From: Actinomadura physcomitrii
GTDB taxonomy: Bacteria > Actinomycetota > Actinomycetes > Streptosporangiales > Streptosporangiaceae
Direction of reading: 5' to 3'
Assembly: GCF_008923205.2 (NCBI RefSeq)
Contig: NZ_WBMS02000003.1
Location: forward strand, 62,001 to 126,000
Length of the DNA: 64,000 nt
Shown: in pieces, positions 53,967 to 64,000 of the stretch
Numbering within the stretch: position 1 is the first letter of the stretch
How the letters are laid out: each line of letters starts with the position of its first letter
Translations under genes and position numbers: made by a program
Notes under the pieces: model-generated
What the model saw: the letters and a program-made list of their open reading frames with translations, nothing else
Told to the model about the DNA's origin: nothing
Database searches by the model: none

Positions 53967-55052
53967 ATGACCACCCTCGCGCCCGGCGCCGCACCGGCCC
54001 GGTCGGCGGTGTTCCACGAGCTGACCGTCGCGGCGGTCGACCGCCTCTGCGAGGACGCCGCCGCGATCACCTTCGACGTCCCCGCCGGCCTGCGCGACGC
54101 CTACGCCTTCCGGGCCGGGCAGTCCCTCACCCTGCGGCGCTTCGTCGACGGGCGGGAGGAGCGCCGGTCCTACTCGATCTGCGCGCCCGCCGGCGCCGCG
54201 CCGCGCATCGGCGTCCGGGAGATCCCCGGCGGGCTGTTCTCGTCCTGGCTCGTCAACGAGGTCGAACCGGGCACGCGCCTCGAGGTGCAGACCCCCACCG
54301 GCTCCTGGCAGGCCGACCCGGAGGCGGGCGAACGGCACCTGTGCATCGCCGCCGGCTCCGGCATCACCCCCATGCTGTCGGTCGCCTCCACCGTCCTGAC
54401 CCACCCCAGTGCGCAGGTGACATTGCTGTACGGCAACCGCACCAGCCGCACCGTGATGTTCGCCGAGGAGCTCGGCGACCTGAAGAACCGGTACGGGCCG
54501 CGGTTCCAGCTCGCCCACGTGCTGTCCCGCGAGCCGCGCGACGTCGCGCTGTTCTCCGGCCGCCTCGACGGCGACCGCCTCGCCCGCCTGCTCACCGGCC
54601 TGGTGCCCGCCGAGGTCTTCGACCACGTCTGGCTCTGCGGGCCCCTTGCGATGGTCGAGGACGCGCGGAAGGTCCTCGCCGACCTCGCCGTCCCCGCGCG
54701 GGTGCACGTCGAGCTGTTCTACGTCGACGCCCCTCCGCCGCGGCCGAGGCGCGCCGACGACACCGTCGCCGGCGCGACGGCCGAGCTGACCGTCGTGCTC
54801 GACGGCCTGCGCACCACGTCCCGGGTGTCCCGCGAGACGACGATCCTGGAGGGCGCCCAGCGCACCCGCGGCGACCTGCCCTTCGCCTGCAAGGGCGGCG
54901 TCTGCGGGACGTGCCGCGCCCGCGTCGCCGAGGGCGAGGCCGACATGCGCCGCAACTACGCCCTCGAACCGTCCGAGGTCGCCGCCGGGTTCGTGCTGAC
55001 CTGCCAGTCGTTCCCGGCCGCCGACACCGTCACGGTCGACTACGACGCCTAA
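53967..55052 (+). CDS. paaE: 1,2-phenylacetyl-CoA epoxidase reductase subunit
   Basis: A 361-residue oxidoreductase. The ferredoxin-NADP reductase module covers about residues 1-245, with FRAGQSLTLRRF and RRSYSICAP for FAD, GSGITPMLSVASTVL for NADPH and VWLCGPLAMVEDARK. The C-terminal 2Fe-2S domain has CKGGVCGTCRARVAEGEADM and a final LTCQSFP, giving four cluster cysteines. It passes electrons from NADPH to the PaaA di-iron site. The stop overlaps the convergent TetR gene by four bases. Confidence 0.95.
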   Translation: MTTLAPGAAPARSAVFHELTVAAVDRLCEDAAAITFDVPAGLRDAYAFRAGQSLTLRRFVDGREERRSYSICAPAGAAPRIGVREIPGGLFSSWLVNEVEPGTRLEVQTPTGSWQADPEAGERHLCIAAGSGITPMLSVASTVLTHPSAQVTLLYGNRTSRTVMFAEELGDLKNRYGPRFQLAHVLSREPRDVALFSGRLDGDRLARLLTGLVPAEVFDHVWLCGPLAMVEDARKVLADLAVPARVHVELFYVDAPPPRPRRADDTVAGATAELTVVLDGLRTTSRVSRETTILEGAQRTRGDLPFACKGGVCGTCRARVAEGEADMRRNYALEPSEVAAGFVLTCQSFPAADTVTVDYDA

Positions 55053-55702
55053 TCGAACTGCCCTGGAGCGTTGCGGGTCTCGTTGCGGGCGAGGCCGTCG
55101 AAGGCGATCGCGGTGATGGCGTCGGCGACGGTCGCGGTGTCGTAGGCGCCGCCCGGCCGGTACCACTCGACCAGTGAGTTCACCATGCCGAACAGCAGCC
55201 GGCTCACCAGCACCGGCGGCACGTCCCCGCGCAGCGCGCCCTCGGCGACGGCGTCGGCGACGAGTTCGGCCAGCCGGTCGTCGATCCACCGGCGGCGCTC
55301 CAGCGCGGCCAGCTCCACCTCGCTGTTGCCCCTCACCCGCAGCAGCAGCGTGACGGTCGGCTGGTGCGCGACGAGGACCTCGACGCTGCGCCGCACCACC
55401 GCGCGCAGCCGCTCGTAGGCGGTCGTTCCCTCGCGCGCGCGGGACGCCTCGGCCACGGCGGCGGTGAGCTCGTCGAGGGCGTCGTCGAGGGCCTGGCCGA
55501 GCAGCTGCTCCTTGCCCGAGACGTGGTGGTAGATCGCGGGCTTGGTGAGGCCGAGCTCCCTGGCCAGGTCGCCCATGCTGGTGGCGTCGTAGCCCTTGCG
55601 GTTGAACAGGTCCACGGCGGCGCGCAGGATCGCCGCCTGGTCGTGGCCGGGACGGCCACGCCGGCGGCGCGGAGCGGATCCCTCCGGACCGGTCGTCACC
55701 AC
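55049..55702 (-). CDS. TetR family regulator, PaaR-like
   Basis: A 217-residue TetR protein. The N-terminal HTH contains GYDATSMGDLARELGLTKPA and IYHHVSGKEQLLGQALDDAL. The ligand domain ends with VSRLLFGMVNSLVEWYRPGG, a common motif in PaaR/KstR-like regulators. Its place at the end of the paa operon and the half-sites upstream of paaA suggest it is the phenylacetyl-CoA-responsive repressor. It converges on paaE with overlapping stops. Confidence 0.88.
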   Translation of the reverse strand: MVTTGPEGSAPRRRRGRPGHDQAAILRAAVDLFNRKGYDATSMGDLARELGLTKPAIYHHVSGKEQLLGQALDDALDELTAAVAEASRAREGTTAYERLRAVVRRSVEVLVAHQPTVTLLLRVRGNSEVELAALERRRWIDDRLAELVADAVAEGALRGDVPPVLVSRLLFGMVNSLVEWYRPGGAYDTATVADAITAIAFDGLARNETRNAPGQFD

Positions 55703-55830
55703 GACCGCAGCATCTCACGCGCGCCGGGGGCACCGACCGGACCGGGGCGGGCGGCGCGTGCCTGGCCGGACGGTGTGATCTGCGTAACCTTGCCGACGGT
55801 GAGGGCGCGGGCCGTCTCCGGCATATTCCC

Positions 55831-55854
55831 TGATAAATCGGTATGTTTTATAGG
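55831..55854 (+). promoter_or_regulatory. AT-rich promoter/operator upstream of sulfur-type operon
   Basis: TGATAAATCGGTATGTTTTA, continuing TAGG, is the AT-richest stretch of the 240-base gap. ATAAA (55833-55837) and TTTAT (55847-55851) are inverted around TCGGTATGT. It lies about 90 bases before the leader-peptide gene. Similar AT-rich elements precede sulfur-regulated operons in actinomycetes; a specific regulator is not identified. Confidence 0.4.
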
Positions 55855-55942
55855 TTTTCCTCGGTCGCGACGACGTCTGTGCAGGTCGAGCGGGCTTTCG
55901 GCGGGCTTCCCAAGACCCGGTTCCGTGTGCATCCTTGGGGAC

Positions 55943-56014
55943 ATGAACGCGACGGAGGTACTGGTGGCGAGGCGCCACATCGACCTCCTCCGCGTGTGCA
56001 GCGCGTCCTGTTGA
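55943..56014 (+). CDS. Cysteine-rich leader peptide (23 residues)
   Basis: A 72-base reading frame with a GGGG-type ribosome-binding site encodes a peptide starting MNATEVLVARRHIDLL and ending RVCSASC. The RRHIDLLR core and terminal Cys residues are the hallmark of actinobacterial leader peptides found ahead of sulfur-assimilation and sulfonate-uptake operons. With two Cys near the end, ribosome stalling when cysteinyl-tRNA is short would control the downstream genes. A weak hairpin (CGGCC 56034-56038 with GGCCG 56046-56050) lies between it and the permease gene and may be part of an attenuator. Recognition is from memory of the family, with high confidence in the pattern. Confidence 0.85.
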   Translation: MNATEVLVARRHIDLLRVCSASC

Positions 56015-56138
56015 ACCGCTGATCCGCACATCACGGCCGATGACCGGCCGCCTCTTCTCCTCCACCGCCCGGCAGTGCCGCCGCGACGGATCCCCCCTCT
56101 GCCTTTCCTTCCGCCCACCCCTGTCCTGGAGGTGCCGC

Positions 56139-56987
56139 GTGTCCACCGATCTGCTCGATCCACCCCGCTCCTCACTGCCCGGAGCCGCGGCGCCGACGGC
56201 CGCGGCGCGGTCGGGCGCCGCGGCGCTGTCGCTGCTGCGCCGCGTCCGCAAGGCCGGCGGGCTCGTCGTCGTCCTCGTCCTCTGGGAGGCCGGCGCCCGC
56301 GCGGGCTGGCTCGGCAGCACCACGCCGCCGCTCAGCGACGTCGCCGTCCGCGGCTGGGACATGGCCTCGTCCGGCGAGCTGTTCACCAACCTCGGCGTGT
56401 CGCTGCTGCGGGTGCTGAAGGGACTCGCGATCGGGCTGCCGCTCGGACTCGTGCTCGGCCTGCTCTCCGGACTGTTCCGGATCAGCGAGGACATCATCGA
56501 CGCGCCCGTCCAGGCCGTCCGGATGCTGCCGCACCTGGCGCTCGTGCCGCTGTTCATCATCTGGTTCGGGATCGGCGAGACGTCCAAGGTCGGCCTCATC
56601 GCGGTCGGCGTCGTGTTCCCGCTCTACATCAACGTGTTCCACGGCATCCGCGGCGTGGACGAGCGGCTGGTGGAGTCGGCGCGGACCTGCGGCCTCGGCC
56701 GGCTCGGGCTGGTCCGGAAGGTCGTCCTGCCGGGCGCGCTCCCGCAGATCCTCGTCGGGCTGCGGCTGTCGCTCGGCGTCGCGTGGCTGACCCTCGTCGT
56801 CGTGGAGCAGTCGGCGACCGCCAGCGGCATCGGCTTCCTCATCAACCAGGCCACCCAGTTCATGCAGATGGACACGGTGTTCCTGGTGCTCGTCCTGTAC
56901 GCGGTGCTCGGCGTGTCGACGGACCTGCTGGTCCGGCTGATCGAACGGCGCGCGCTGGCCTGGCGGAAGGGACTGGTGGCGCGGTGA
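56139..56987 (+). CDS. ABC transporter permease, SsuC/TauC type
   Basis: A 282-residue inner-membrane permease of the sulfonate/nitrate/taurine class. TM segments include GGLVVVLVLWEAGARAGWL and LALVPLFIIWFGIGETSKVG; the BPD-transporter loop is VDERLVESARTCGLGRLGL, with the EAA-like Gly near residue 185. SATASGIGFLINQATQFMQ is typical of SsuC. The GTG at 56139 is six bases after GGAGG. The stop overlaps the ATPase start (GTGA). The leader peptide 124 bases upstream predicts control by cysteine supply. Confidence 0.92.
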   Translation: MSTDLLDPPRSSLPGAAAPTAAARSGAAALSLLRRVRKAGGLVVVLVLWEAGARAGWLGSTTPPLSDVAVRGWDMASSGELFTNLGVSLLRVLKGLAIGLPLGLVLGLLSGLFRISEDIIDAPVQAVRMLPHLALVPLFIIWFGIGETSKVGLIAVGVVFPLYINVFHGIRGVDERLVESARTCGLGRLGLVRKVVLPGALPQILVGLRLSLGVAWLTLVVVEQSATASGIGFLINQATQFMQMDTVFLVLVLYAVLGVSTDLLVRLIERRALAWRKGLVAR

Positions 56988-57715
56988 CCGCGGTCCTGCG
57001 GAACGGGGTGCGCGTCCGCGGCCTCCGGCGGGTGTTCGGCGACCGGACGGTCCTGGACGGCGTCGACCTCGACATCGCGCCCGGCGAGTTCGTCGCGCTG
57101 CTCGGCGCGAGCGGGTCCGGTAAGAGCACGCTGCTGCGCGCTCTCGCCAGGCTGGACGGCAGCGGGAGCGGCGCGGTCGACGTCCCCGCCGGGCGCGCCG
57201 TCGTCTACCAGGAGCACCGGCTGCTGCCGTGGAGCCGCGTGTGGTCCAACGTCGTGCTCGGCCTGCGCGGCCGGGACCTGCGCCAACGAGCCGAGGCCGC
57301 GCTCGCCGAGGTCGGGCTGGCGGCGCGCGCCGACGCGTGGCCGCTCACCCTGTCCGGCGGCGAGTCGCAGCGCGTCGCGCTCGCCCGGGCCCTGGTCCGG
57401 ACCCCCGACCTGCTCCTGCTCGACGAGCCGTTCGGGGCGCTGGACGCGCTGACCCGGCTCAACGCGCAGGCGCTCGTCGCCGACCTGTGGGCCGAGCACC
57501 GGCCCGCCGTCCTGCTCGTCACCCACGACGTCGAGGAGGCGCTGCTGCTCGCCGACCGCGCGCTGCTGCTCGCGGGCGGCCGGATCGCGCGGGAGTACAC
57601 CGTCGGCCTGCCGAGGCCGCGGTCCCTGGACGACCCCGAATTCATCGCGCTGCGGCGCGACCTGCTCGACGGCCTCGGAGTGCGGGCCGTCGCCACAGCC
57701 AAGGAGTCTCGATGA
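56984..57715 (+). CDS. ABC transporter ATPase, SsuB/TauB type
   Basis: A 243-residue ATP-binding subunit: Walker A LLGASGSGKSTLLRAL (near residue 41), the Q-loop VYQEHRLLPWSRVWSNV typical of the SsuB/NrtD class, signature LSGGESQRVALARAL, Walker B LLLLDEPFGALDALTR and switch His in LLVTHDVEEALLLADRAL. It powers uptake through the SsuC-type permease and is translationally coupled to genes on both sides (GTGA and ATGA overlaps). Confidence 0.94.
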   Translation: MTAVLRNGVRVRGLRRVFGDRTVLDGVDLDIAPGEFVALLGASGSGKSTLLRALARLDGSGSGAVDVPAGRAVVYQEHRLLPWSRVWSNVVLGLRGRDLRQRAEAALAEVGLAARADAWPLTLSGGESQRVALARALVRTPDLLLLDEPFGALDALTRLNAQALVADLWAEHRPAVLLVTHDVEEALLLADRALLLAGGRIAREYTVGLPRPRSLDDPEFIALRRDLLDGLGVRAVATAKESR

Positions 57716-59286
57716 ACGAACTGACCGCCGACGTCCTCGTCGCGGGCGGAGGACCCGCCGGAGCCTGGGCCGCCGTGAAGGCCGCGGAGGCCGGCGCGCG
57801 CGTCGTCCTCGCCGACAAGGGGTACCTCGGGACGAGCGGAGCGACGGCGTCGGCCGGCACCGGGGTCTGGTACGTCGAGCCGGAACCGGAGGCGCGCGAG
57901 ACCGCGATGGCGAGCCGGGAGGGCCTCGGCGGGCATCTCGCCGACCGGGAGTGGATGGCCCGCGTCCTCGACCAGACGTACGCGAACATGAACGAGCTGG
58001 CCGAGATCTCCAAGTACCCGTTCCCCGTGGGCGAGGACGGCCGGCAGATCCGGCGAGGGCTGCAGGGCCCGGAGTACATGCGGCGGATGCGCGTGCGGGT
58101 GCGCCGCGCCGGGGTCCGTGTCCTCGACCACAGCCCGGTCACCGAGCTGCTGGCGGACGGGTCCGGAGCCGTCGCGGGCGCGGCCGGGTACCACTTGCGC
58201 GACGACCGGCCGTTCAGCGTCCGCGCCGGCGCGGTCGTGCTCGCCACCGGCGGGTGCGCGTTCCTCAGCAAGGCGCTCGGCTGCGACGTCGACACCGGCG
58301 ACGGGGCGCTGTTCGCGGCGGAGGCCGGCGCGGAGCTGTCCGGGATGGAGTTCTCCAACGCCTACGCGATCGCCCCGGCGTTCACGTCGGTGACGAAGAC
58401 GGCGTTCTACTCTTTCGCCACCTTCTACCGGTCGGACGGCAGCGTCCTGGAGGGCGCGGGCAGCCGCCGCGGCCGGTCCGTCATCGCCCGGACCCTGCTC
58501 AGCGAGCCCGTCCTGTGCCGGATCGACCGGGCCACTCCCGAGCAGCAGCGCGCGATGCGGCTCGCGCAGGCGAACTTCTTCCTGCCGTTCGACCGGCAGG
58601 GCATCGACCCGTTCACGGACCTGTTCCCCGTGACGCTCCTCGCCGAGGGGACGGTCCGCGGCACCGGCGGCATCCGGATCGCGGGCGCCGACTGCTCGAC
58701 GACGGTGCCCGGCCTGTTCGCGGCGGGCGACGCCGCCACCCGCGAGCTGATCTGCGGTGGCTTCACCGGCGGCGGCAGCCACAACGCGGCGTGGGCGATG
58801 TCGTCCGGCACCTGGGCCGGGCGGGGAGCCGCGCGCTACGCCGCCGGGCTCGGCGGACGGGCGGCCGCGCGTCCCGTCCGGGCGCTCGGGGAGGCGGGCG
58901 TGCGGCCGTCCGGTCCCGCGGCGGGCGGCCACGCCGAGTACGTCGCCGCCGTCCAGGCGGAGGTGCTGCCTTACGACAAGAATTTGCTGCGCACCGGCGA
59001 CCGCCTCGGCGCGGCGCTGGCGTCGCTCGACGGGACGTGGCGGGAGCTGCGGGGCACGCTCCGCGAGGACGGCGCCGGGGTGGTGCGGGCGCGGTCGGCC
59101 GCGGCCATGGCCGCGCACGCCCGCTGGATGTACAACGCGGCGCTCGCCCGGACCGAGACGCGCGGCATGCACAAGCGGCTGGACCTGCCCGAGCAGGACC
59201 CGGCCCAGCGCCGCCGGCTCGTCACCGGCGGCCTCGACGAGGTGTGGACGCGGCCGGAGACCGGCGCCCTGGCGGTGGCGTCGTGA
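57712..59286 (+). CDS. AprA/fumarate-reductase-like flavoprotein
   Basis: A 524-residue FAD enzyme of the fumarate reductase/adenylylsulfate reductase (AprA) superfamily. The FAD motif is VLVAGGGPAGAWAAVKAAEA (residues about 8-27); LGTSGATASAGTGVWYV follows near 44. AVVLATGGCAFLSKALGC and GDGALFAAEAGAELSGMEFS are near 180-210, RGTGGIRIAGADCSTTVPGL near 317, and LICGGFTGGGSHNAAWAMSS near 348. The C-terminal helical domain has MAAHARWMYNAALARTETRG. The ATG follows AAGGAG and overlaps the ATPase stop; its own stop overlaps the ferredoxin start. In AprAB such a pair interconverts APS and sulfite; here the substrate is probably an imported sulfur compound. That use is an inference. Confidence 0.85.
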   Translation: MNELTADVLVAGGGPAGAWAAVKAAEAGARVVLADKGYLGTSGATASAGTGVWYVEPEPEARETAMASREGLGGHLADREWMARVLDQTYANMNELAEISKYPFPVGEDGRQIRRGLQGPEYMRRMRVRVRRAGVRVLDHSPVTELLADGSGAVAGAAGYHLRDDRPFSVRAGAVVLATGGCAFLSKALGCDVDTGDGALFAAEAGAELSGMEFSNAYAIAPAFTSVTKTAFYSFATFYRSDGSVLEGAGSRRGRSVIARTLLSEPVLCRIDRATPEQQRAMRLAQANFFLPFDRQGIDPFTDLFPVTLLAEGTVRGTGGIRIAGADCSTTVPGLFAAGDAATRELICGGFTGGGSHNAAWAMSSGTWAGRGAARYAAGLGGRAAARPVRALGEAGVRPSGPAAGGHAEYVAAVQAEVLPYDKNLLRTGDRLGAALASLDGTWRELRGTLREDGAGVVRARSAAAMAAHARWMYNAALARTETRGMHKRLDLPEQDPAQRRRLVTGGLDEVWTRPETGALAVAS

Positions 59287-59627
59287 TCGAGATCGTCTCG
59301 CGGGACCGGTGCATCTCCTGCGACAAGTGCATCGCGGTCTGCCCGACCAACGTCTTCGACCGCGGCGAGGACGGGATCCCCGTGCTCGCCCGGCGGGACG
59401 ACTGCCAGACCTGCTTCATGTGCGAGGCGTACTGCCCGGTGGACGCCCTGTTCGTCGACCCGCGCTCGCACCCGCTGCCCGAGCCGCCGGACGAGGCCGC
59501 GCTCGCCGCGGGCGGGCTCCTCGGCAGCTACCGCGAGCGGATCGGCTGGGGCCGCGGGCGCACCCCCGGCGCCCGGTTCGCGGTCGGGCCCTCGCTGGAC
59601 CGCGCGGGCGCGCCCCTCACCTCCTAG
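59283..59627 (+). CDS. Two-cluster 4Fe-4S ferredoxin (AprB-like)
   Basis: A 114-residue electron carrier. Two CxxCxxCxxxCP motifs are visible: CISCDKCIAVCP (residues 10-21) and CQTCFMCEAYCP (residues about 41-52), giving two 4Fe-4S clusters, as in AprB. The C-terminal 60 residues have no Cys and could wrap the flavoprotein, like the AprB tail. The GTG at 59283 overlaps the stop of the flavoprotein, so stoichiometric production is expected. It should link the flavoprotein to the cell's electron carriers. Confidence 0.92.
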   Translation: MIEIVSRDRCISCDKCIAVCPTNVFDRGEDGIPVLARRDDCQTCFMCEAYCPVDALFVDPRSHPLPEPPDEAALAAGGLLGSYRERIGWGRGRTPGARFAVGPSLDRAGAPLTS

Positions 59628-59665
59628 TACGGCGCAACCCTGCGCACCCCCTGAAAGGCGTCAAC

Positions 59666-60637
59666 GTGAGAATTCCCCGGATGCTGGCCGCCGGCCTGCT
59701 CGTCCTCGCCGCGGCGGCGTGCGGCTCGTCCGCGGCCGCCGGCGGCTCCGGGACGCTGCGCGTCGGAGTCATCGGATCGGCCGTCGGCAACAAGCTGACC
59801 CGCGCCGTCGGGTTCCTCGACGAGCGCGGTGAGCTGCTGCCCGCGCTGAAGGCCGCCGGCGTCACCAGGATCAAGGTCGCGACGTTCCAGAACGGCCCCG
59901 ACCTGAACCAGGCGCTCGCCGGCGGCTCCCTCGACATCGGCATGTACGGCGACACCCCCGCGCTCATCGGGCGCGGCCAGGGGCTGCCGACCCGGCTGCT
60001 GTCGCTCAACTCGGTCCGCCTGGACGCGGCGATCGTCGCCAGGAAGAACGGCGGGCCGGCGTCCCTGAAGGATCTGCAGGGCAAGGTGATCGGAGTGCAG
60101 ACCGGCTCCTACATCCACCGCTACCTGCTCGGCGCGCTCCGGCAGGCCGGAGTGAAGCCGAAGCAGATCATCCACATGTACACGCCGGCGATCATCGCGG
60201 CGCTGGAGAAGGGGTCGATCGACGCGGGCGGCCTGGTCTCCGCCGACCAGGTCGCCGAGGAGGCGAAGGGCTACAGGTCGATCGACGTCGCCTCCCGCGA
60301 CCATCCCGACCTGCTCGGCACATCCGTCACCGTCGTGACGGAGAAGTACCTGTCCGGGCACAAGGGCATCGTCAAGGCGTGGCAGCAGGCCGAGACCAAG
60401 GCCTCGCAGGTCGCCAAGGCGAACTGGGCCGCCTACACCGCGTACGTCGCCAAGACCGGCGGGTACGCGCCGCAGGTCACGCTCAAGACGACGCTGAAGG
60501 ACCAGCTGCCCGACGAGCCCTTCCCCGCGGACGGGCTGAAGCTGCTCGACGGCACCAAGACCTTCCTCGTGCAGCAGAAGCTCGTCAAGAAGGACTACAC
60601 GCTCGACTCCTGGCTCGCGCCCGGGGCGAAGGCATGA
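59666..60637 (+). CDS. ABC transporter substrate-binding lipoprotein (SsuA/THI5-like)
   Basis: A 323-residue binding protein. The signal peptide has a hydrophobic MLAAGLLVLAAAACGSS segment with the lipid-anchor Cys at about residue 17. The mature part, TLRVGVIGSAVGNKLTRAVG, then TFQNGPDLNQALAGGSLDIG and KVIGVQTGSYIHRYLLGAL, and EPFPADGLKLLDG near the end, is typical of NMT1/SsuA proteins for sulfonates or similar anions. GTG 59666 follows AAAGG. It lies 38 bases after the ferredoxin gene and completes the transporter. Confidence 0.92.
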   Translation: MRIPRMLAAGLLVLAAAACGSSAAAGGSGTLRVGVIGSAVGNKLTRAVGFLDERGELLPALKAAGVTRIKVATFQNGPDLNQALAGGSLDIGMYGDTPALIGRGQGLPTRLLSLNSVRLDAAIVARKNGGPASLKDLQGKVIGVQTGSYIHRYLLGALRQAGVKPKQIIHMYTPAIIAALEKGSIDAGGLVSADQVAEEAKGYRSIDVASRDHPDLLGTSVTVVTEKYLSGHKGIVKAWQQAETKASQVAKANWAAYTAYVAKTGGYAPQVTLKTTLKDQLPDEPFPADGLKLLDGTKTFLVQQKLVKKDYTLDSWLAPGAKA

Positions 60638-60646
60638 TGCCCGGTC

Positions 60647-60868
60647 TCAGGCGCGCCACCGGTAGATCTGCCCGTCGCGCAGCTCGACGGAGGCGGGCGG
60701 AGCCGGAGCCTGGGCGGCCTCCTCCAGCATCGCGAGGACCTTCGTCCTGCCGCGCAGGGTGCGCCCGTCGGCTCCGGTCCAGTGCAGGTACGGGTGCAGC
60801 AGCGGCCGCGCCGCCTCCCAGTCGCGGGCGGCGAGGGCCGCGTGCGCCTGCCGCACGATCTCGTCCAT
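60647..60868 (-). CDS. Small SnoaL/NTF2-like protein
   Basis: A 73-residue protein: MDEIVRQAHAALAARDWEAA, RPLLHPYLHWTGADGRTLRG, then KVLAMLEEAAQAP and VELRDGQIYRWRA. The pattern resembles the nuclear transport factor 2-like fold, but it is short compared with the usual 110-140 residues, so it may be a compact member or a fragment. It converges with the lipoprotein gene at a 9-base gap. Function unknown. Confidence 0.65.
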   Translation of the reverse strand: MDEIVRQAHAALAARDWEAARPLLHPYLHWTGADGRTLRGRTKVLAMLEEAAQAPAPPASVELRDGQIYRWRA

Positions 60869-60913
60869 GCCGTGATCCTTCCTTCTATGGGCGCCCTGAG
60901 ACTCCGCGTGCGG

Positions 60914-63523
60914 TCAGGATCCGCTGCGGAGGAGGTCGTGGACGGCCTCGCTCATCGTCACCGGATCGACCTCGCCGAGCGGCACGGAGCCCTGCGGCGC
61001 GCGGGCCGGTTCCGGACCCGCCCACAGGGCCGTGATCCGCTGGTCCTCGCCCTCGCCGTACATGTAGTAGCCGAGGCCGGGGCTCAGGCTCGCCACCACG
61101 TACAGGCCGGCCGGGTCGCGGCGGGCGAGCCAGGCGCCGGTGAAGTCGCCGTTGGCGTCGACGGACTCCCAGCGCCCCTGCGAATGCCCCTTCGCCTTGC
61201 CGTAGGGCAGGACGAGCCCCTCCACCCGGGCGAGCCTGTGCGCGGTGCGCTCGGCGTCCGTGAGCCGATGGACGGGCCGCCCGAGCTGCTCGAACGGCTG
61301 CAGGATCTCGTAGTCGGCGAACAGCTCCGCCCAGGCGCCGAGGTCGTCGCCCAGCAGCAGCGGGTGGGCGATGCCGATCCGGGCGTCCGGTGCCGGCGTG
61401 AACGCGTCGTCGTCGATGCCCGCGTAGGTGCGGTCCTCGGCGACGCGGAACGCGGTGCCGCCGTCGGTGATCCACACCAGCCGGCGGACGATGTGCCGCA
61501 GCAGCGGATGGTCGACGAACAGCCGGCGGAAGTCGTCCGGCGTCCAGCTCCGCCGGACGGTCATGGCCTTCTCCAGGCGCTTGATCTCCTGGTCGGCGAT
61601 CGTCCGCAGGTCCTTGCGCAGGCCCGTGAACAGCGCGTGCGCGGCCTGCGCGAGCGCCGGGTCGTCCTTTGGGCCGGGCTTGGGCGCGCTCTTGCGGACC
61701 TTGCCGTTGGCCTCCACGACCAGCGGGACGAGCTGCTGGTCGAAGGTCACCGTGAACCGGCGCGGGCCGTAGTCCAGGACGAGCGTGCCCTGCTCGTCCA
61801 GCCCGAAATCGGGGACGGCGCGGTCGGCGAGGTCGTCCGGTGTGATCCCGCGCGCGGCGGCGATCTCGTCGATCCGCTGCGCCGCCTTGGCCTTGAGCCC
61901 CTTGTACTTGCCGCGGCGCGTCAGCTCGAACAGGTGGGTGAGGGCGACGTCGGAGCCGATCGCGGCCAGCACGTCCAGCGCGGCGACGGCCCGTCCGGTG
62001 CCGCCCTCGCCCGGCCACTGCCTGATCAGCGGCGCGAGCCGCCGCACCGTCGTGTCGTCCCCGATCACGCCGAGCTGCGCCAGCGCCCAGTTGTGCTTGG
62101 ACGGCGCCCCGAGCGCGTACCAGCGCTGGAACACCGCCCAGGAGAACTCCGCCAGCGAATGCCGGTCGCAGAAGCCGCGGACGTCCGCCGCCTCGGGCGC
62201 CTTCTTGGCGAGCAGCGCCAGCAGGCGCCTCGTCGCGTCCTCGGGAAGCGCCCGGTCGCGGCCGCGGGTGAGGACGCGGGGGAGCAGCGCCGGGTCCGCC
62301 CAGTCCGTCTTCGCGCTGCGCGTGGCCCGGCCCGTGAGCGCGGCGGGCAGGTCGTCGCAGTCGGGGACGGCGGGACGCGGCAGCAGATCCTCGGCGGTCC
62401 CCGGCGGGAGCGCCTCCGCGAGTTCCGGCTTCGCGTGCAACAGGCTCCGCACCAGCCCGGCCGCCTGCAGGCTCCGGACCGTCTGTTCCTGCACGAAGGG
62501 CGCGAGCGCCCGGACCGCCTGCACCGGATGCCGCCTCGCCGCTTCCTGCAGCGCGGCCGGCACGCCCTTGATCCCCATGCGGCCGAGCAGTGCGGGGAAG
62601 AGCCGCTCGTCCGCGATCCCGAGCAGCGCTTTTAGTACGAGCGGACGTATCTCGTCGGAGTCCCCGTGGCGGTAGGCGAGGGCGGTCTCGAGCAGCGGGA
62701 GGGCGTCCGCGCCGAGACCGTCGAGCAGCGTCGCGAGCACGTCGGGCACGACGGGGATCCAGCCGAACCGGTCGGCGTGGGCGGCGGTGGACAGCGAGCA
62801 CAGCAGGTGCTCGTGCCCGAGGACGCCCATGCCGGACGGGTCGTCGAGGGTCTCGTCCACCCAGGCCGTCTCGGTCGGCGCCAGGTAGGACGCCGTGGAG
62901 CGCCGCGCCGCGTCGCCGCGGTGCGCCGCCAGCCGCGCGACGGCGTCGCGGTACTCGTCCTCGGGGGCCGCCGCCAGCAGCGCGCGGAGCCGCTTGGCCA
63001 CGGCGTCCTCGGCGATCCACAGGGTGCGGGCGAAGTGGTCGCGGGACGTCGCGCGCCGGATCTCGCCGCGCCATCCCCGCGGCGCGCCGGCGTGGCTGTA
63101 GGCCACGAGGCGGATGACACGGTCGGGGCCGGGCCTCGCCTGCGCCGGCGGCGGGCCGAGCGCGATGGAGGACGCCTCGGTGAGGGCGCACGCGGCGAAC
63201 GCGAGCCCGTGGTCCAGGACCCAGGCGTCCACGAAGGGCGCGCCGCCGAGGCCGTCCAGGTGCTTCACCGCGACGGCGGCGAGGACCGCCGCGCCCGCCG
63301 GGTCGGCCCCGCCGTCCAGCCGCGCGCGCAGCGCCTTGGCGAGGTCGGGGTCGGTGCGCTCGTGCTCCGCCATCTCCTCGGCGATCGCCCGCGCCTCCTG
63401 CTCCCACTCGCGCGCCCGCCGCGCGGCGTCCTCGTCCAGGACGGCCTCAGGCCCGGCGACGCCGCCGTGCCGGGGGTGAAGGTGCTCGCGCCACTCGACC
63501 GGAATGTCCACCGTCTCGCTCAT
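60914..63523 (-). CDS. DUF4132 domain-containing protein
   Basis: A very large 869-residue protein of unknown function. The C-terminal half contains the DUF4132 (MolR-like) domain, recognised by AMTVRRSWTPDDFRRLFVDH, PLLRHIVRRLVWITDGGTAF and YEILQPFEQLGRPVHRLTD. Residues about 250-560 have HEAT-like helical repeats (for example DALPLLETALAYRHGDSDEI). No TM segments or signal peptide are seen, so it is cytoplasmic. The ATG at 63523 gives the best start. Members are often found in actinomycetes, sometimes with WGR domains; no WGR is seen here. Confidence 0.85.
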   Translation of the reverse strand: MSETVDIPVEWREHLHPRHGGVAGPEAVLDEDAARRAREWEQEARAIAEEMAEHERTDPDLAKALRARLDGGADPAGAAVLAAVAVKHLDGLGGAPFVDAWVLDHGLAFAACALTEASSIALGPPPAQARPGPDRVIRLVAYSHAGAPRGWRGEIRRATSRDHFARTLWIAEDAVAKRLRALLAAAPEDEYRDAVARLAAHRGDAARRSTASYLAPTETAWVDETLDDPSGMGVLGHEHLLCSLSTAAHADRFGWIPVVPDVLATLLDGLGADALPLLETALAYRHGDSDEIRPLVLKALLGIADERLFPALLGRMGIKGVPAALQEAARRHPVQAVRALAPFVQEQTVRSLQAAGLVRSLLHAKPELAEALPPGTAEDLLPRPAVPDCDDLPAALTGRATRSAKTDWADPALLPRVLTRGRDRALPEDATRRLLALLAKKAPEAADVRGFCDRHSLAEFSWAVFQRWYALGAPSKHNWALAQLGVIGDDTTVRRLAPLIRQWPGEGGTGRAVAALDVLAAIGSDVALTHLFELTRRGKYKGLKAKAAQRIDEIAAARGITPDDLADRAVPDFGLDEQGTLVLDYGPRRFTVTFDQQLVPLVVEANGKVRKSAPKPGPKDDPALAQAAHALFTGLRKDLRTIADQEIKRLEKAMTVRRSWTPDDFRRLFVDHPLLRHIVRRLVWITDGGTAFRVAEDRTYAGIDDDAFTPAPDARIGIAHPLLLGDDLGAWAELFADYEILQPFEQLGRPVHRLTDAERTAHRLARVEGLVLPYGKAKGHSQGRWESVDANGDFTGAWLARRDPAGLYVVASLSPGLGYYMYGEGEDQRITALWAGPEPARAPQGSVPLGEVDPVTMSEAVHDLLRSGS

Positions 63524-63607
63524 GGCCCCGGAACCTAACGGCTCCCGCCGACACTCGCGCGGAGCCGGTTCGGGCGGCGGCGGATCCCCAGCGGTTAGCA
63601 TCACCGG

Positions 63608-64000
63608 ATGCCGCTGATCGCAGCCGGTCGCTTCCACGCGTACGGGCCGTCCCACTGGGCGGCCCTCGGGCTGTTCGCGATCGGCTGCGCGGTGCTGGTG
63701 GCGCTCGGCCGCGCGCAGCGGACGCCGGGGACGGAGCCCGGCTCCGGGGAGCAGGCGAAGGGCTTCGGCCGGGCTTACGCGCTGGCGGTCCTGTTCGTGA
63801 TGATCGGCACGCAGGCGCACGCCCTGCTGCCCCGGGAGTGGGATCTCGGCGGGTCGCTGCCCCTGCAGTTGTGCGACGTGGCGTGGCTGACCGCGGCCGG
63901 CGCGCTGTGGACGTTCCGCCGCCGCTGGTACGCGCTGACGTACTACTGGGGGCTCACCCTGTCGGTGCAGGGGCTCCTCACGCCGGCGCTCGACGGCGGC
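63608..64000 (+). CDS. TIGR02206 (YwaF-like) family membrane protein, 5' part
   Basis: The first 131 codons of a membrane protein that runs off the right edge. It begins MPLIAAGRFHAYGPSHWAAL, followed by helices with LGLFAIGCAVLVALGRA and LAVLFVMIGTQAHALLP. The diagnostic segment SLPLQLCDVAWLTAAGALWT is near residue 88, and RRRWYALTYYWGLTLSVQGL near 110. The pattern matches the TIGR02206 family of unknown function. The ATG has no strong ribosome-binding site. It is divergent from the DUF4132 gene. Confidence 0.8.
   Translation, partial: MPLIAAGRFHAYGPSHWAALGLFAIGCAVLVALGRAQRTPGTEPGSGEQAKGFGRAYALAVLFVMIGTQAHALLPREWDLGGSLPLQLCDVAWLTAAGALWTFRRRWYALTYYWGLTLSVQGLLTPALDGG

Follow-up and report, generated by a model that had tools for sequence, protein, structure and literature searches.

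A flavoprotein–ferredoxin pair within a cysteine-leader importer operon of Actinomadura physcomitrii, probably for sulfur scavenging

Introduction

What frees the sulfur of an imported sulfonate-like compound when the operon that encodes the importer has a flavoprotein and a ferredoxin where an oxygenase gene would be? The question is raised by a 64-kb stretch of the genome of the soil actinobacterium Actinomadura physcomitrii (contig NZ_WBMS02000003.1; hereafter the window), in which an operon at 55943–60637 encodes, all on the + strand, a cysteine leader, an ATP-binding cassette (ABC) permease and ATPase, a flavoprotein, a two-cluster ferredoxin and a lipoprotein. The best-known assimilatory sulfonate operons rely on oxygenases, whereas no SsuD- or TauD-type oxygenase was found in this operon or anywhere in the window at an E value of 1e-12. 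Our observations concern gene order, leader conservation, family identity and genomic neighbourhoods.

The operon very probably serves sulfur scavenging under cysteine control, and we lean towards the flavoprotein–ferredoxin pair itself freeing sulfur from the compound taken up. To the fuller claim that this release is reductive, which is our best explanation in full, we give somewhat less than an even chance. We propose only tentatively that the pair represents a new enzyme class, in which a member of the fumarate reductase superfamily and a two-[4Fe-4S] ferredoxin split the C–S bond of imported sulfonates by reduction, with no need of oxygen, so that sulfite becomes available for assimilation, and which occurs unannotated in about five phyla. 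If so, an unnamed but widespread family would provide a further, possibly oxygen-independent, route to organic sulfur, the form that makes up more than 95% of soil sulfur according to the abstract of PMC4267179.

Operon layout

An earlier interpretation made from the DNA letters and their translations (the sequence-only reading) had described a 23-residue leader with a terminal Cys followed by an SsuC-type permease, an SsuB-type ATPase, a flavoprotein, a ferredoxin and a lipoprotein, and all of these are in place, with Pfam in agreement on the genes (Table 1). It had called them a six-part unit, which holds if the leader is counted, as the protein genes number five. The overlaps that it noted from permease through ferredoxin are three successive overlaps of 4 nt, and the lipoprotein gene follows after a 38-nt gap. 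The two CxxCxxCxxxCP motifs of the ferredoxin are likewise present, and recur in 101 of the 102 ferredoxin matches in the loci examined (L024–L112). For the permease we take GTG 56139 as the start, since all 13 aligned loci have an unchanged GGAGGT ahead of it. A search of Rfam returned no match at E 1 within 55600–60700. Upstream of the leader, a divergent gene on the minus strand (55049–55702) encodes a TetR-family regulator.

Table 1 Features of the importer operon and its upstream region. aa, amino acids; ORF, open reading frame.
Feature	Position	Strand	Basis or remark
Candidate −10 element TGCATCCT	55928..55935	+	7 nt 5' of leader ATG; alignment of 13 loci
Leader ORF, 23 aa, two Cys codons, Cys-stop end	55943..56014	+	Translation MNATEVLVARRHIDLLRVCSASC; NCBIfam leader models
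Ribosome-binding site GGAGGT of permease	56128..56133	+	No variation across 13 aligned loci
SsuC-type ABC permease, 282 aa	56139..56987	+	Pfam BPD_transp_1; best NCBIfam SsuC 225.2 bits, cut-off 347
SsuB-type ABC ATPase, 243 aa	56984..57715	+	Pfam ABC_tran; best NCBIfam PRK11247 235.2 bits, cut-off 395
FAD flavoprotein, unnamed family, fumarate-reductase fold, 524 aa	57712..59286	+	Pfam FAD_binding_2
Ferredoxin, 114 aa, two CxxCxxCxxxCP motifs	59283..59627	+	Pfam Fer4-type
Lipoprotein-type substrate-binding protein, NMT1/SsuA-TauA type, 323 aa	59666..60637	+	Pfam NMT1

The cysteine leader and the importer point to sulfur

For comparison we used public loci, the best 80 of 556 stretches from a one-genome-per-species tblastn scan (E ≤ 1e-3), so that counts lean to close relatives; some of these loci run into contig ends. 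The leader scores 36.4 bits (cut-off 45; E 2.7e-9) and 25.2 bits (cut-off 27; E 9.2e-6) against two NCBIfam leader models. A degenerate DNA pattern for it occurs once in the window and in none of 100 shuffles, and since, in addition, the leader is kept upstream of the permease in relatives (13 of the 80 loci), we do not regard it as a chance ORF. The run permease–ATPase–flavoprotein–ferredoxin is found in 19 of the 80 loci, and all 13 leader-bearing loci lie within these 19; a looser motif has forward matches in 19 of 89 loci (L024–L112) and backward matches in none. Across 14 leader sequences the last Cys is always kept. Variation affects 23 of the 66 coding columns, with 8, 4 and 11 of them falling on codon positions 1, 2 and 3, whereas each flanking stretch of 60 columns has 58 variable ones, a crude contrast drawn from an ungapped comparison of the flanks.

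Within the −10 candidate (TGCATnnT), the T, G, C, A, T and last T are invariant in the 13 aligned loci, with a C before the last T in at least 90% of them, and a consensus scan of 55700–56200 found no sigma-70-type promoter. The position of this candidate suggests a leaderless transcript starting at the ATG. In this the window leader resembles the mycobacterial Cys leader attenuators of the Ms4527A family, which are likewise short ORFs with Cys codons at the end, located before sulfur-related genes; a 2020 paper on them by Canestrari et al. is said to speak of a leaderless ORF in its title, and the nearness of the −10 candidate to the ATG suggests the same type here. Unlike these, the window leader has its two Cys codons apart and not in a run, and its profile score is slightly under the cut-off.

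Eight matches to the leader family model at E ≤ 0.0013 occur in this genome, five of them above the cut-off, the window leader not being among the five. The seven besides the window leader precede KorA, a HEAT-repeat protein, DUF4395 with a rhodanese, cysteine dioxygenase, an SDF symporter, an ABC ATPase operon and sulfite reductase, and because of these genes we take the leader to mark sulfur-related genes, though not exclusively. The best match (C15:43482) precedes KorA, a 2-oxoacid:ferredoxin oxidoreductase and so a possible source of reduced ferredoxin when cysteine runs short. The match before the HEAT-repeat protein is at C23:266517, and the ORF before the leader-associated ABC ATPase looks like a lipoprotein, though Pfam gives no match for it at E 1e-5. 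A leader before cysteine dioxygenase (C60:61198) is odd in a cysteine-saving gene set; a passage in PMC7661421 describes increased cysteine dioxygenase and sulfurtransferases in Gordonia supplied with organic sulfur.

The importer points in the same direction, as the lipoprotein is nearest to SsuA and TauA both by sequence and by fold, its six best solved folds all being one or the other, while the curated SsuA model gives 121.8 bits (cut-off 163.5; 22 of 32 binding proteins were aligned). The operon thus shares its importer type, and probably a role in sulfur scavenging, with the Ssu and Tau operons (SsuABCDE, TauABCD), and differs from them in its flavoprotein and ferredoxin and in importer scores that stay under the NCBIfam equivalog cut-offs. 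The sulfur link drawn by the sequence-only reading is borne out by the leader family, by this importer and by sulfur genes beside the relatives of the operon.

The flavoprotein belongs to an unnamed family

That reading had further called the pair AprAB-like, a comparison which stands for the general architecture and fails for the family. AprAB and the PAPS (phosphoadenosine phosphosulfate) reductase of M. thermolithotrophicus (8a8o) also combine an FAD flavoprotein of the fumarate-reductase fold with a ferredoxin bearing two [4Fe-4S] motifs, although this says little for kinship with AprB, such motifs being common to many ferredoxins. The window pair, in contrast, is tied to a sulfonate-type importer, and its flavoprotein reaches 41.4 bits against the AprA model NF005331, whose cut-off is 557. 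In an unrooted tree of 30 proteins, each cut to at most 640 residues and with the cut E. coli FrdA and one protein of the same genome (L005) left out, all 11 AprA rows, short AprAs included, form one clade (100/99), and the 15 rows of the window family lie outside it in a clade of their own, with sistership open. In our alignments, the AprA motifs EPY..G[GS]H, KF.SG and RF..(R).KD are present in the AprA rows, with variants in one of them (L147), and absent from the window family. Separate clade, score and missing motifs together rule out membership in AprAB.

SdhA and FrdA outscore both 8a8o and AprA against the flavoprotein. Fumarate reductase, succinate dehydrogenase and L-aspartate oxidase are ruled out as its family by the positions of FrdA His355, Arg390 and Arg287, which we take to be the catalytic residues of FrdA, SdhA and NadB (FrdA numbering): in an alignment of 46 of 107 full-length matches (37 for the structure model, with 9 plasmid rows left out), other residues occupy these positions in 46 of 46 members, a count that depends on the alignment, and His355 aligns with Glu312. 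The window flavoprotein also differs from these enzymes in having no sdhB/frdB-type partner. No NCBIfam model claims it, so that it was not found to fall into a well-characterized family with an unrelated substrate, and we found no description of the flavoprotein–ferredoxin pair in the open-licence literature.

Most relatives keep the pair near importers and sulfur genes

The ferredoxin gene lies immediately 3' of the flavoprotein gene in 73 of the 80 loci (11 ferredoxins were aligned). At least one importer part is encoded within 6 kb in 71 loci and a complete importer in 54, of which 16 have no TauD, LLM or SfnB gene within that distance. As a rough background, the remainder of the 64-kb window contains no gene of any kind counted here. 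Plasmid searches gave 58 and 59 records, of which 15 were inspected; in the 14 that are annotated the ferredoxin is always adjacent, and a contiguous importer is present in 9. Plasmid neighbours include SfnB, SsuD, CysDN, a rhodanese, serine acetyltransferase and aliphatic-sulfonate binding proteins. The annotated records label the genes merely 'FAD-binding protein', 'ferredoxin family protein' or similar, and a function shown for one pair could therefore serve many vaguely labelled genes.

A proposed mechanism and its alternatives

Under a shortage of charged Cys-tRNA, ribosomes would stall at the Cys codons of the leader and thereby allow downstream expression, as the leader family suggests. 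Lipoprotein, permease and ATPase would then import a small sulfonate-like compound, judging from sequence and fold, and flavoprotein and ferredoxin would act as a redox enzyme that breaks it and gives off inorganic sulfur, most likely sulfite, which would pass to sulfite reductase. Most likely the ferredoxin clusters would pass electrons via FAD to the substrate, for a reductive C–S cleavage that needs no oxygen. The pair would replace the SsuD or TauD oxygenases of known sulfonate operons, a role in which we place it because units of importer and pair without a nearby oxygenase occur in several groups. The suggestion of the sequence-only reading that the pair works on the imported compound agrees with this mechanism.

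Several results weigh against it. None of leader, permease, ATPase and binding protein reaches its curated NCBIfam cut-off. A consensus scan of 55700–56200 found no intrinsic terminator, and the consensus fold of the leader RNA, with 1 of 28 pairs changed on both sides, shows no structural attenuator. Seven of the 80 loci have no adjacent ferredoxin, and eight have neither an importer part nor TauD, LLM or SfnB within 6 kb. At least one of these three enzymes is encoded near 38 of the 54 complete-importer loci, so that loci with a nearby oxygenase-type gene outnumber those without, and the pair may be one means among several or play an accessory part.

An accessory role would make the pair an electron relay, or a handler of intermediates, for sulfonate monooxygenases (LLM type, TauD) encoded nearby or elsewhere. 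It would fit the presence of TauD, LLM or SfnB within 6 kb in 43 of the 80 loci, recurring orders such as SBP-ATP-PERM-LLM-FLAV-FD-TauD (binding protein, ATPase, permease, LLM, flavoprotein, ferredoxin, TauD; 6 loci with this or a similar order) and the genes LLM-SfnB-SfnB-LLM further down the same operon in three Actinomadura loci (L028, L029, L032). Yet LLM enzymes normally get reduced flavin from NAD(P)H-flavin reductases, and 16 of the 80 loci combine a complete importer with none of these enzymes, in a search confined to 6 kb; we consider such a role unlikely. The same scavenging unit might instead run with reversed electrons, the flavoprotein dehydrogenating the compound in the manner of aspartate oxidase and succinate dehydrogenase, the product shedding sulfite by itself and the ferredoxin taking the electrons away. 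Although sulfite can leave a dehydrogenated product spontaneously, the catalytic residues of that kind of chemistry are the ones replaced in all aligned members of the family, and a low-potential two-cluster ferredoxin would be an unusual electron acceptor in an aerobe, which makes this direction a minority prospect.

Two further alternatives concern the substrate. It could be free of sulfur, with shared transporter ancestry and the leader as the only sources of the sulfur signs, given that proteins of the same fold also bind nitrate, bicarbonate or pyrimidines and that the leader family also stands before KorA, the HEAT-repeat protein and the SDF symporter, which also counts against the proposed mechanism. 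The uniform SsuA or TauA folds and the recurrence of sulfur neighbours in several phyla make this improbable. Least credible is an assimilatory APS (adenosine phosphosulfate) or PAPS reductase fed by an importer for sulfate or a sulfate ester, as the AprAB comparison would have it: the flavoprotein lies outside a clade that takes in even short AprAs, lacks their motifs, falls far below their cut-off and scores better with SdhA and FrdA, and we hold this to be very improbable.

Distribution and further associations

The 80 loci are mostly actinobacterial, and also come from Nostoc and its kin, Paenibacillus and one Capsulimonas bin, which we take to be an armatimonad; plasmids (58 records) add rhizobia, Azospirillum, Paracoccus, Cupriavidus and others, proteobacteria included. 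Identity across phyla is about 57–66%, which suggests horizontal spread. The distribution within the group is patchy: counting the genome of the window each time, there are matches in at least 10 of 59 relatives (E 1e-30), at least 17 of 200 genomes of the order (E 1e-100) and at least 2 of 296 of the phylum (E 1e-40), lower bounds because only the best few candidates per genome were scored.

Among the best 80, the nearest public locus is that of A. montaniterrae, with a flavoprotein 98% identical. Two flavoproteins are encoded in 19 of the 80 loci, and in A. montaniterrae (L024, 6822–8719) and several relatives a second flavoprotein–ferredoxin pair directly follows the binding protein. The match between the window and this locus ends at 60638, just past the binding-protein gene, and no remnant of a second pair was found in 60301–64000 of the window (best E 0.14). 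In three cyanobacterial loci (L088, L092, L094) an MFS transporter gene follows the flavoprotein gene, with no ferredoxin directly behind. The A. physcomitrii genome itself has a second importer–flavoprotein association, at C89 (L148:3173–8827), where an NMT1 binding protein is clustered with a FAD_binding_2 flavoprotein that bears HEAT repeats and groups with AprA (96/93).

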